The translations under genes were made by a program, and so were the position numbers. Shown here one piece after another: positions 1 to 50,764 of a DNA stretch of 50,764 nt (within the stretch, counting starts at the first letter, position 1; each line of letters begins with the position of its first letter). The DNA is from Deltaproteobacteria bacterium. GTDB taxonomy: Bacteria > Myxococcota > JACPTQ01. Under the pieces are notes generated by a model. That model was given only the letters and a program-made list of their open reading frames with translations. It did not search any database and was not told the DNA's origin. The DNA lies in contig JACPTQ010000087.1 of assembly GCA_016192705.1 (NCBI GenBank), positions 1-50,764 on the forward strand. The letters are read 5' to 3'.

Positions 1-83
1 GAATCGATATTGCGCTGCAGACCCTGCGCAAAGGTGGGGCTGCGGGCTCCGTGAAGTCCGCCACGATCGCCGAGAACGATTGA
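1..83 (+). CDS. C-terminal end of an unidentified protein (partial)
   Basis: Reading from base 3, an open frame runs from the window edge for 26 codons to a TGA at 81-83. Its residues end in SVKSATIAEND. The composition (hydrophobic stretch, then a Gly/Ala/Lys tail) is reasonable for a protein C-terminus, but no family is recognisable from so few residues. The two other plus-strand frames were not clearly better. It may simply be chance open frame, so confidence is low. Confidence 0.35.
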   Translation, partial: IDIALQTLRKGGAAGSVKSATIAEND

Positions 84-383
84 GCGTCGGTGCGGCGGCC
101 TTGTCGCGCAAAGATGCGCTCGCTGCGGCTCGCGCTCGATCATCAGCGCGTTCACCGTCGCCCTTGCCATTTCCGCTGCGCGGACGCTCCACTGGAGCAT
201 CCGCAGAAGGCAGCGGAAATAGCCACTGGCTTGCCCGCAGACTGCTCGCGGAATAGGCGCGCCTGTGCGAGCCCCTGCCGACCCTACGCAAATCCGGGCG
301 GACCGTTTACCGTGGACGTGTTTTTCTGGGCTTGAGGGCGGTACGAAGAGTTCACCGGCTGGGTGTCGGCCAGCGTTCGATCC
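84..383. other. Non-coding stretch between the first gene tail and the repeat
   Basis: About 300 bases in which no frame shows convincing coding character. Short open frames on both strands have compositions typical of GC-rich shadow frames and no recognisable family. The one structured element is the hairpin at 169-220, listed separately. Nothing else stands out between 221 and the start of the repeat at 384. Confidence 0.5.
169..220. repeat. 52-nt imperfect hairpin (long inverted repeat)
   Basis: The outer arms ATTTCCGCTGC (169-179) and GCAGCGGAAAT (210-220) are perfectly complementary over 11 bp. Inside them GCGGA (180-184) pairs with TCCGC (200-204), and GCTCC (186-190) pairs with GGAGC (194-198) around an ACT loop. 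There is one C/A mismatch and a 5-nt bulge (AGAAG). No T-run follows on either strand, so it does not look like a simple intrinsic terminator. It resembles a REP-like palindrome or a structured RNA. Confidence 0.6.
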
Positions 384-637
384 ACCCCCAAGTCTCTCGA
401 CAGCCGTTCCAGGGCAACGGCTGATTTCTGGTTGCGCGGGCTGGGATTGGGCAAGCGGAGGCTCGCATCCTCAGGGGATGAGGTGCCGATGGGGCGTGGA
501 ATTGCCGTTCTCGTGATGTTTGATTGATCTCGTGCAGACTCACATTTAATGTCAGACCCGAGGACTTTTGCGAGCCGGAGCGAGCCCAGACCCCGCCCGC
601 CCCACCGCAATGTTGCCCGTTATCCGGGAATCAGGGA
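384..637 (+). repeat. Left copy of a ~254-bp repeat, inverted relative to the copy at the right end
   Basis: This stretch matches the reverse complement of 50510-50763 at roughly 85% identity by eye. Shared blocks include GATGAGGTGCCGATGGGGCG, ATTGCCGTTCTC, GTGCAGACTCACATTT and the run from ATGTCAGACCCGAGGAC through GGAGCGAGCCCAG. The repeat ends 15 bases before the proposed start of the fliO-like gene. The reading frame open in the right copy is broken by stops here, so it looks non-coding. No transposase or terminal direct repeats were seen. Confidence 0.85.
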
Positions 638-47400: not shown

Positions 47401-50373
47401 ATCCGCGCCGTCGTATCGATTCGACGTGGCGCCGCCCGTGTCGCGCACCGTGTACGTGACTCTCGAGCGCGCGTCGTACTCCGTCCGCTCGGAAACTTTT
47501 TGGTCGCCCGGCGTGAGCGGGCCGTCCGTGAGCGCAGCCGCCCGCGCAAGCGAAATTCCCGTCGGCAAAAAGAGTTCGCGATCGACTTGGATGCGCCGAC
47601 CCAGCTCGTCGAAAAGGAAGTTCGTCCGCGCGAGGGAGGTTTGCGCGCCACCGACGACGGCGTTCCCCTTGACCTCGACCTTGATCGCACGGCCGTCGGG
47701 GTCGAGCGTCAGCTCCGTGCGCGTCCCCACACGATCGATGCGCGCCTTGACGCGATCGAACCCATCGAACTCGCTCGTCCATGTGTGACTTCCGACGGCG
47801 TCGGTCGCCACCGTGAGGTTCCCGTTTAGGTCGTAGGTGTAGGTTATCGTCGATGCGCTCCCCCCTTGCCCGCCGCGGGTCGACGACGTCATCAGGTTCC
47901 GCGTGTCGAACGCATAGAGTCGAACATTGTCCGTCTGCGTCCCCGCGACCGCGAGCGGGCTCTCGTTGCGCGTCAGATTCCCGTTGGCGTCGTATCGAAA
48001 GCGCTCGGTCAGCGTCTCGGGCTCGGCCGACGCGGGGGACGCTGGGTCGCGCGTTGCGTCGTTCGTCTTTTCGACCGGCTGGTTCAAAATGTCGTACGTC
48101 GTCGTGTTTCTAAAGAATTCGCGGGACGAGACGACAAGCGGAAGGTGCGTCGTCGGGCTCGTCGTCACGTTTTGGACCGACACCGCCTTTCGATTGTTGT
48201 TTGCGTCGTATTCAAAGTGGCGGAGGAACCCGCGCGCCTGCGAGCCATCGATCTTCGGCGCCTCCTCCTCGACGATCTGATCAAGCGCGTTGAAAAACAT
48301 CTTCTGCACGTTGCCCCTGGCGTCCGTTAACGTCTTCACGTTCCCGCGCGCGTCGTAAAGGTACTCTGTCGAAAGCGCGAGCGCCGCCCCCGGGTCTATG
48401 CGGTTCGCGCCGAGCGTGGCATCGACGATTCGCTGTTTGAGATAGCCGCCCGTCGTTCCGTTTCGGCCCGCGCGAATATCTAAGCCGTCGCCGTCCGGAT
48501 CCGATTCGGGGTGGTATGCGAACGTCGTGATGTTTCCGCGCTCGTTCTCGATCTGCGTCGGTTGCGCAAACGCGTTAAACCGCGTCGTCGTCACGATCGC
48601 CTGCTGCGTTGTCCCTTCGGCGATCGCCTGCTTCGTCCCCGCGACGAGCGTCACCGTCGGGCGCGCCGTGCGCACAACGTTTCCCATCGTCTGATTCGTT
48701 GCGCCATCGCCGTTCACGTCGCCCTTCGACAAGATCGCGCCCGGAACCGTGATGCCCCAGTCGGTCGCCTCGGCGGGTGTCGTCGCCGCCTCCTGATAAT
48801 CGTATGTGTAGGTCGTTGTGTAGCGCGCCGCCGATTGGCTCCCGCCGTTTTGCGGAATGTACGACGCGTCGTTGCCGCGCGGAGAGACCACCGTGAGCAG
48901 CTGGTTGAAAAGCGGCTCGTAAGTATATGTGGAGCGGATCTGCGTCTGCGCGCCGCCGCGCGTCTGATCCGGCACCTTCGTCCGCGTGAGAAGATTGCCG
49001 CGTTGAAAGCGGTCCGCGTTGGCGTCGTCGTAGGTTGAGTCGGTGCGGTTCCCGAGCGGATAGACGACCGACGTTTGGAGCCCGTCGGCGTTGTAAGTGC
49101 GATCGGTCGTAAAGGCGCCACCCGATGGGTCGACGACCGTGCGAAGCGCCTGCCCCGTCGCGTTGTGGTACGTCACGATCGTGTTGCCGCGGCGGTCGAC
49201 GACGGTCGTTTTCGACGTGGTCCCCGCCGGGCCGCCGCTCGGCGCGAAGTCGTAAGCGACGCTGAGGCTGCCGCCCGCCGCGACGCCGCTCGCATTGGTG
49301 CCGCCGACGGTTTGCGCGGTGACGCGGTCGAATGCGACGCCCGATGTACCGTACGTCGTCTGGAGATAGGCGGTGGTTGAAGCGACGGCGACTTCGTTCG
49401 GCGCGACGATCGCGGTCAAGTTGTGTACGAGTTTCGGGTCGGACGAGCCGGTCGCGTATTGGTACTGCTCGGTTTTGCCGCTCGGGAAGTCGTTCCCCGC
49501 GTCGGGAGCCCCAGTCGCGACGGGCGATCGCGCCGCGGTGAGGTGATCTAAAACATCGTAAGTGAAGTCGACGACGCGGCCTGAAAAATCGGTAATGGTG
49601 TCGAGGCGGCCGCTGCCTGTGTAGGCGAGCGTGATCGGTCGGCCCATCTCGTCATCGATTCGCGTGAGCTGGCTCCCGGTGTAGACGTAGGTGTGGAGGT
49701 CGCCGGTGCGGTGCCGGACTTGGGTGAGGCGCCCCGACGTCAAGTCAAACGTAAAAACCGTTCCGTTCGACTTTCGAAGTTCGAAGGCGCTTCCGGTCTT
49801 TCGGAGTTTCGTGAAGTGGCCGGTGGGCGATGTGAAGGCGCCGCCGCCCGTCGCAACGTAGCGGTCGCTTCTCCCGGTGCCGTCGTGGAAGAGCACGTCG
49901 CCGCTTCCCGAAAGTTCCTCGACGCGTCGAAAGACGTTCGCGTCCCAGCCGTAGCCGAGCGGCCCCAGTTGATCGTTGAAGCTGCGGTACGTGCGGACGA
50001 ATGAAAAGCCGAGGCTTCGCGCTTTGATCGCCATGTCAGTGCGCACGACGCGAAGCTCGCCGCTGTGAAGGAGCACGCCGCCCGGGTTGTCGTTCGCCGA
50101 TTGGCCGAGGCTTGGGCTTCGCGCCGGCTCTTGAAGGTACGGGCCTGCGTCTGCACCCGCTCCCGCATCCGCCCCCACGCCCGCATCCGCTCCCGCATCC
50201 GCTACCGCTCCCGCGTCCGCTCCTGCATCCGCTCCCGCGTCCGCATCCGCTACCGCCCCCGCATCGGCTTCGGTCCCCGCATCAGCGCCCGGCGACGTTG
50301 GTTTTGCACAGCCAAAAACAACGCACAAAACGCCCAACCGCCAACCGGCCAATAGATCTCGATATGCCTTCAC
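44461..50373 (-). CDS. RHS/YD-repeat lipoprotein with variable C-terminal domain
   Basis: A 1970-residue protein. The N-terminal signal ends in a lipobox (LCVVFGC). A ~50-residue Ala/Asp/Gly linker (ADAGADAGAVADAGADAG) follows, then a DUF6531-like start (LRVVRTDMAIKARSLGFSF) and many YD repeats (TYDALGRVTQITRADGKTVT and similar) up to the core end SRDPIGTWGDPANF...NRRDPLGL near residue 1742. The last ~227 residues are a cysteine-bearing C-terminal domain, the place where RHS toxins sit; it is not recognised. GTG at 50373 (MKAYRDLL...) has a GGACGGGG site; TTG at 50388 is possible. Confidence 0.92.
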   Translation of the reverse strand: MKAYRDLLAGWRLGVLCVVFGCAKPTSPGADAGTEADAGAVADADAGADAGADAGAVADAGADAGVGADAGAGADAGPYLQEPARSPSLGQSANDNPGGVLLHSGELRVVRTDMAIKARSLGFSFVRTYRSFNDQLGPLGYGWDANVFRRVEELSGSGDVLFHDGTGRSDRYVATGGGAFTSPTGHFTKLRKTGSAFELRKSNGTVFTFDLTSGRLTQVRHRTGDLHTYVYTGSQLTRIDDEMGRPITLAYTGSGRLDTITDFSGRVVDFTYDVLDHLTAARSPVATGAPDAGNDFPSGKTEQYQYATGSSDPKLVHNLTAIVAPNEVAVASTTAYLQTTYGTSGVAFDRVTAQTVGGTNASGVAAGGSLSVAYDFAPSGGPAGTTSKTTVVDRRGNTIVTYHNATGQALRTVVDPSGGAFTTDRTYNADGLQTSVVYPLGNRTDSTYDDANADRFQRGNLLTRTKVPDQTRGGAQTQIRSTYTYEPLFNQLLTVVSPRGNDASYIPQNGGSQSAARYTTTYTYDYQEAATTPAEATDWGITVPGAILSKGDVNGDGATNQTMGNVVRTARPTVTLVAGTKQAIAEGTTQQAIVTTTRFNAFAQPTQIENERGNITTFAYHPESDPDGDGLDIRAGRNGTTGGYLKQRIVDATLGANRIDPGAALALSTEYLYDARGNVKTLTDARGNVQKMFFNALDQIVEEEAPKIDGSQARGFLRHFEYDANNNRKAVSVQNVTTSPTTHLPLVVSSREFFRNTTTYDILNQPVEKTNDATRDPASPASAEPETLTERFRYDANGNLTRNESPLAVAGTQTDNVRLYAFDTRNLMTSSTRGGQGGSASTITYTYDLNGNLTVATDAVGSHTWTSEFDGFDRVKARIDRVGTRTELTLDPDGRAIKVEVKGNAVVGGAQTSLARTNFLFDELGRRIQVDRELFLPTGISLARAAALTDGPLTPGDQKVSERTEYDARSRVTYTVRDTGGATSNRYDGADRMIDQTLPISGIHPDGGAIASSGTTFTFDPNGNVTGDVAQHLADAGSGAQILTTTKVYDALNRLRRVADPGGHTEYFDLDSRGNLVSKYDARGPVLADGGNDRGNAIRYRYDGLGRLWTEVHELTTTGESDAGLDVTAFNPDGLITLVTEWDPNSQVVKKKDDNGNTTALTYDALGRVTQITRADGKTVTRTYNADDDVVTETNEDGTTLTMTYDGEGRRTRRDVTSTSGRTVAAGIAMFVGTTVQTWAYDGRSHVIQSTDNNDPADVNDDWTVVSKYDSLGRLAEQLQNGRAVTNGYVSTMRSEVFYPNFVAPDGGRVVHFTYNAMDQMFRFANTATVTVTDDTSGTICPPPNTNRDIGGFFHSSTTRIISEGRDVISTNHGSYGQAAVDSLSRGHQATGFNELQFNSPTVEVNLYSASYDSAGRIKAQNSQRSSSAVFDGGSQSFTGSTNVTSAYDGAQNRRTQTITPGGTQLNAPGPANEPEFDGGIDHDGDNDAGGAAGSGDRSRDPGFLYQWDVFHRLRALLSTTQEDGGYVVYARYNYDSELSPIPTGRRIQKVVQNRGVLDSMRRFYWDDTNMIEETVLPDAGAVEVTNRQYIFGKQPNDVQVMHADIDGGGTLNRIFFLFKDFNNNTTQLVESNGTPAEFYKYDDKGSPTILHPQSLMPRSYENANLDDRPIGNPWLFMGHHFDHESRLASNAGHIYMKARFYDTTFGVFMSRDPIGTWGDPANFGNPYTLTGNDPLNRRDPLGLDGEGPGGAGSDQAAKVKQAEADTERYRQTDSSGLIGFVVAGKNVAGNPTPNETWIQKNILRPLGQAGSACLANLKHTNVYHDGKRVMEGRGVRGENTPFQSQDYEWVVRLYKVNVGWLRWGRCPIPCSEAADADILACLNASPGYKQEYSVTSANCQQDVEKAIAGCCLRGYSGVSPVSADSAYGDKAKEAAIDQEIAKQEADALKATEDNLLKTLQAMNADRASR
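50150..50290. repeat. Low-complexity tandem repeat in the RHS linker
   Basis: Degenerate 6- and 12-base units of the form GC[AG]TCCGCTCCC recur about 20 times. They encode the Ala/Asp/Gly linker of the RHS lipoprotein. Slippage in such DNA could change linker length without shifting frame, since the units are multiples of three. Confidence 0.75.
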
Positions 50374-50439
50374 GGGCACCCCGTCCAAATAGAAACCGAG
50401 TGATCAGCGACTCGGCCTGATTGGACTCGCATAGTCCAA

Positions 50440-50469: not shown

Positions 50470-50509
50470 CGGCAGACGTTGAACGATTGTCACCGATTAA
50501 TCCTGAAAT

Positions 50510-50763
50510 CCCCTGATTCCCGGACAACGGGCAACAATTGCGCGGGGCGGGCGGGGGCTGGGCTCGCTCCGGCTCGCAAAAGTCCTCGGGTCTGACATGA
50601 AATGTGAGTCTGCACGAAACGAATCAAACATCATGAGAACGGCAATTCCACGCCCCATCGGCACCTCATCCCCTGCGGATGCGACCCGAAGCAAGCCCAA
50701 TTCCCGCCCGCCGAACCAGAACCCGGCCGTTTTCCTGAAACGGCGGCTAAGGGACTTGGGGGT
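50510..50763 (-). repeat. Right copy of the ~254-bp repeat, reaching the window end
   Basis: This is the inverted counterpart of 384-637. The end carrying GGGAATCAGGG faces the RHS gene, just as the same end faces fliO on the left, so each repeat has the same orientation relative to its downstream gene. The match continues to the last bases, so the repeat may extend past the window. If the window is a contig, this repeat could be why assembly stopped. Confidence 0.85.
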
Positions 50764-50764
50764 C

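Follow-up and report, generated by a model that had tools for sequence, protein, structure and literature searches.

Two copies of a repeat at the ends of a contig

The window, i.e. the whole stretch of 50,764 bases analysed here, is contig C84 of a draft assembly of 5.21 Mb in 88 contigs with 97% completeness. Near its left end, a gene for FliO (PF04347, E 5.9e-12) starts at position 653 and is followed by FliP and then by export proteins of families 3 and 1, and near its right end a gene for an RHS-repeat protein (PF05593) starts near 50379. Near this latter start, a tandem repeat of 6/18 nt (CCCGCATCCGCT type) occupies 50144-50287, which reads on the minus strand as an Asp-Ala-Gly-rich stretch.

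By self-comparison of the window, we found an inverted pair of 253 nt (384-636 and 50511-50763) with 87% complementarity, both the best and the longest one of the window, as the runner-up has only 77 nt at 71%. An earlier note on this DNA had described such a repeat, about 254 bp long and about 85% identical by eye, upstream of genes at both ends. The match is real, while the extent had to be revised: a longer element is present, of which the 253 bp make up only the 3' (right-hand) half. The features of the two copies are as follows.

1-636, plus strand: copy A of the element, very probably a MITE; model positions 159-551 at 237-635; left end lost at the contig start
384-636, plus strand: right ~253 bp of copy A, as first noticed; 87% inverted match to 50511-50763
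617-635, minus strand: right terminal inverted repeat (TIR) of copy A, CCTGATTCCCGGATAACGG; among 127 genome sites at <=3 mismatches
551-567, plus strand: subterminal motif of copy A, GTCAGACCCGAGGACTT; helix 4, 98.3% of cells paired
455-488, plus strand: inner motif of the right arm of copy A, CGGAGGCTCGCATCCTCAGGGGATGAGGTGCCG; helix 6, core nearly invariant in 22 copies
47-160, no strand assigned: additional module in the interior of copy A; 114 bp match L095:15530-15643 at 92%
50508-50764, minus strand: copy B of the element, very probably a MITE; model positions 300-551 at 50764-50512; genome match C84:50511-50763
50512-50530, plus strand: right TIR of copy B, CCTGATTCCCGGACAACGG; from the TIR site scan of the genome
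50580-50596, minus strand: subterminal motif of copy B; motif scan, 0 mismatches

Copy A is an enlarged variant with a long interior. Window 1-83 is element interior, and 5-51 and 157-235 correspond to interior sequence of other copies, for the most part with 91-100% identity. The 114-bp module (47-160) also stands alone at the L095 site, away from any recognised copy. Copy B has lost its left half at the contig end. The right ends of both copies face the genes, about 16 nt from the FliO start and about 131 nt from the RHS start, close to the 15 and about 135 nt given before. Since each copy lacks one end, their own target-site duplications (TSDs) cannot be seen.

The position of the repeat at both ends is explained by the window being one contig, whose assembly broke inside copies of the element. 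Among 98 contig termini examined, most of them picked for known copies, 53 have a copy no more than 141 nt away, and among less selected termini 8 of 30 do. The family accounts both for the assembly being fragmented and for how the window looks.

Copy number and structure of the element

With a 277-bp query from a window copy, we obtained 213 first-look candidates and 49 matches, 40 of which, besides the query itself, are near-full-length with 86-93% identity. The motif GTCAGACCCGAGGACTT has 246 genome sites at <=2 mismatches against 0 for the reversed control, and the right TIR has 127 sites at <=3 mismatches, again against 0. In total 157 copies, summing to 62.9 kb, were located in the 2.53 of 5.21 Mb that were read; these stretches were picked around known sites and their copy density is not representative, as 400 kb of less selected sequence contain one partial copy. 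Complete copies frequently carry two subterminal sites (205 sites in 133 copies of the stretches read), and scaling from motif sites gives about 160 motif-bearing copies. With the diverged and partial ones added, the genome holds roughly 160-190 copies, which bears out the earlier suggestion of a dispersed element.

Alignment of complete copies with their flanks gave sharp borders. The intact element is about 550 bp long (mode), variants that keep both ends range from 127 to 887 bp, and the GC content is 62%. Imperfect TIRs, CCYYGATYCCCGGWTAA..., lie at the ends: the element starts with CCYYRATCCCCGGWTAAGCGG and ends with CCGTTAWCCGGGAATCAGG(G), being CC-ended, and the left CCYYRATCCCCGGWTAAGCGG corresponds imperfectly to the right end read in reverse, CCTGATTCCCGGWTAACGG. 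Near the ends there is a subterminal inverted pair, GTCCTCGGGTCTGA / TCAGACCCGAGGAC, in which the left-arm GTCCTCGGGTCTGA of complete copies is the inverse of the right-arm GTCAGACCCGAGGACTT, and further inside follows a second pair, ACCCTGCGGAGGCGCGCC / GGCTCGCGTCCGCAGGGG, in which the left-arm ACCCTGCGGAGGCGCGCC pairs with the right-arm CGGAGGCTCGCATCCTCAGGGGATGAGGTGCCG. Both motif blocks are almost invariant, whereas the whole arms are only 51% alike. Interior modules are lost or gained in variants, and can be placed at mirrored positions of either arm. A single strand is predicted to fold back into one long branched hairpin (z = -4.4 as DNA and -5.4 as RNA).

Intact copies share 82% identity on average and 94% at most, and judging from this mean they appear to be old by now. 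We found no arm-to-arm homogenisation within a copy (51.3% identity within against 51.2% between copies), and there is little if any mosaic exchange between copies (39 of 400 pairs above all nulls).

Target-site duplications

We searched direct repeats at the borders of 71 complete copies that lie clear of sequence edges, permitting a border slide of <=3 nt in data and control alike. It turned out that 52 of the 71 are flanked by exact direct repeats of 7-14 bp, while shuffled border pairings give about 0.3. The commonest length is 8 bp, though the length is not perfectly fixed, and the duplicated sequences have 46% GC against 60% for intergenic DNA. These duplications are strong evidence that the copies arrived by transposition.

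Location of the copies relative to genes

Running a simple home-made codon-usage gene caller, we found no called gene that covers more than 20% of any of the 157 copies. The alignments contain frame-breaking indels, in agreement with the earlier view that the repeat is non-coding. On both grounds, a piece of a duplicated protein-coding region, for which similarity alone would speak, is practically out of the question.

The 97 copies located in gene gaps are distributed over 52 divergent, 41 tandem and 4 convergent gaps, where gap length predicts 26.7, 53.8 and 16.4 (p = 1e-8). Element ends point toward gene starts 175 times and toward stops 57 times. The right end facing the gene, true of both window copies, is no genome-wide rule and is a matter of chance there, as starts and stops are faced 99 and 30 times by right ends and 76 and 27 times by left ends. 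In tandem gaps, 20 copies have the same orientation as the genes and 21 the opposite one. Start-side enrichment without orientation bias indicates either a preference of the element for promoter-side DNA or its survival there, in both orientations.

The marked preference for divergent gaps and gene starts, together with two inverted motif blocks whose conservation far exceeds that of the remainder, could also be read as the sign of a regulatory element or non-coding RNA that is dispersed over the genome and retained by selection upstream of operons. We consider this unlikely. The balanced orientation in tandem gaps (20 against 21) speaks against it, and so does the fold, in which 86.0% of the cells in predicted pairs over 22 copies are paired against 85.6% after shuffling, with an RNAalifold covariation term of about 0, so that covarying stems are negligible. 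Besides, an Rfam scan of the window gave no match, the window copy showed no promoter-like site, and the TSDs show transposition. A transposase-binding site would equally show conserved inverted blocks, and we infer that these are better explained as putative sites of this kind than as selected RNA. Of the two possibilities raised before, a regulatory or a non-autonomous element, the non-autonomous dispersed one stands on the TIRs and TSDs, and the regulatory one lost ground with the orientation counts and the covariation.

Assignment of the element

The repeat is, with high confidence, a MITE. Such elements are short DNA transposons without coding content, which depend for their movement in trans on a transposase encoded at another site. 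This reading follows from the sharp shared ends, TIRs, inner inverted motifs, TSDs, the many copies at unrelated places, lack of coding capacity and an intergenic placement biased to gene starts, and the element is also stem-loop forming. MITEs are typically small, under 500 bp, and usually AT-rich. The GC content of 62%, the variation in TSD length and the missing autonomous partner were counted against the assignment, and the size (mode about 550 bp, range 127-887 bp) is slightly above the usual limit, so that the family is rather large and GC-rich among MITEs.

REP/BIME-like palindromes spread by a RAYT (Y1) transposase would likewise be strictly intergenic and form hairpins from paired inverted motifs. 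The size of about 550 bp, the TIRs and TSDs and the absence of Y1_Tnp (PF01797) from the genome make them very improbable. Finally, inverted copies flanking 50 kb might be taken for the two ends of a single IS or composite transposon spanning the window. This is refuted by the roughly 160-190 copies, of which complete ones each have their own two ends and mostly TSDs, by the 50 kb of flagellar and other genes in between, and by the coincidence of the repeat ends with the contig ends; the remark that the pair is no simple IS pair was right.

Transposase partner and proposed mechanism

To the MITE belongs a transposase, and this missing partner is the only real puzzle. Profiles of DDE_Tnp_1, Transposase_mut, IS1595, ISL3, rve, IS66 and Y1_Tnp (PF01797) gave no match in the whole 5.2-Mb assembly. 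In the 2.53 of 5.21 Mb of draft assembly read, we found no autonomous element that has these ends, and no TIR-bounded ORF came up in the genome part checked. Two facing ends 3.3 kb apart in contig C64 were considered as an autonomous element and rejected, being two separate MITE copies; the gene between them looks by sequence like a sigma factor with its neighbours. The transposase has been lost, or is unassembled, or comes from a family outside the seven searched. Multi-copy transposons are easily lost from draft assemblies, and the draft may simply have lost the partner; the family may also be a relic. That the family was spread by an undescribed or unsearched transposase, which recognises the four alternating inverted motifs and the TIRs and targets promoter-side DNA, and that this enzyme is still in the genome, seems to us rather doubtful.

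As for the mechanism, a DDE-type transposase would have bound the terminal and subterminal inverted repeats and cut the element out or copied it. Its insertion at staggered breaks, in promoter-side DNA that is rather AT-rich, would then have produced the TSDs. For the most part the copies are probably neutral and simply tolerated between genes as passengers, and in a few cases the promoter or leader of the facing gene may be altered by the copy.

Other repeats in the genome

Besides this family, the genome contains further dispersed repeats. A second MITE-like family of about 140-210 bp, with ends TTARCAGGTTGCTGAAAAACGCCC...CAACCTGYTA, is represented by at least 13 copies in the part read, such as L102:10826-10983, L064:7913, L067:13290, L049:7639 and 14329, L041:4816, L104:2374 and others. 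A third repeat of about 215 bp with ends GGGTGCGGAAAAACGCCCGCCGCGCGC is 85-90% identical between sites (L042:10051-10267, L098:10646, L126:18722, L047:15138 and L166:17717). Diverged relatives also occur, in which mainly the paired inner and subterminal motifs (GCGAAGGCTTGCGTCCGCAG...CAGACGCGAGGACGTTCGC) have been kept, enclosing a variable loop of about 60 nt (L120:10235-10428, L093:16492, L097:14707, L068:11649, L038:4684, L115:2308, L124:77 and L085:16833).

Distribution and comparison with known systems

We searched for relatives in same-phylum genomes (58, then 195), and outside the source genome only short matches of 26-54 bp were obtained, the element itself being absent from the 195. 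The exact TIR pattern had 3 unrelated matches in 84,980 species genomes (source record possibly excluded), which is about chance level. The plasmid collection gave no match with the left copy as query, and the subterminal motif had 1 match in viral contigs. The MITE family is new to the collections searched, while this kind of element is already known.

In this genome, a heavy MITE load (about 63 kb in the half read) is concentrated before genes and the common transposases are missing. Two questions can be put cleanly here, namely how MITEs persist after their transposase is gone, and whether their placement at promoters results from the choice of insertion site or from selection.

Among known systems, ERIC, of about 127 bp, is likewise a high-copy intergenic non-coding element, but it is shorter and has 5'-TA-3' termini. 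Its TIR has 7 bp (PMC2229807). High-copy MITEs adjoining promoters have been described (PMC10969869, PMC2229807), and the Correia elements or NEMIS of Neisseria, compared by description, are similar in being non-autonomous, with TIRs, a TSD and over 120 copies, and in lying mostly immediately upstream of genes (PMC10969869; PMC2229807). Correia elements have about 107-155 or 204 bp and 5'-TA-3' termini, whereas the present family has about 550 bp, is CC-ended and GC-rich, and has TSDs of 7-14 bp (often 8 bp) and a second, inner pair of inverted motifs. Chunjie of Geobacter uraniireducens and QMITE of Coxiella are likewise multi-copy MITEs that come in several sizes and include partial copies, with the ends conserved (PMC10969869), though both are smaller, with 178-235 bp and up to about 400 bp respectively. 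YPAL/RU-2 of Yersinia resembles the present family in not being A+T-rich, in having inverted repeats and in the variable length of its TSDs (PMC2229807), but it has 168 bp, internal instead of terminal inverted repeats, and TSDs of 3-26 bp.
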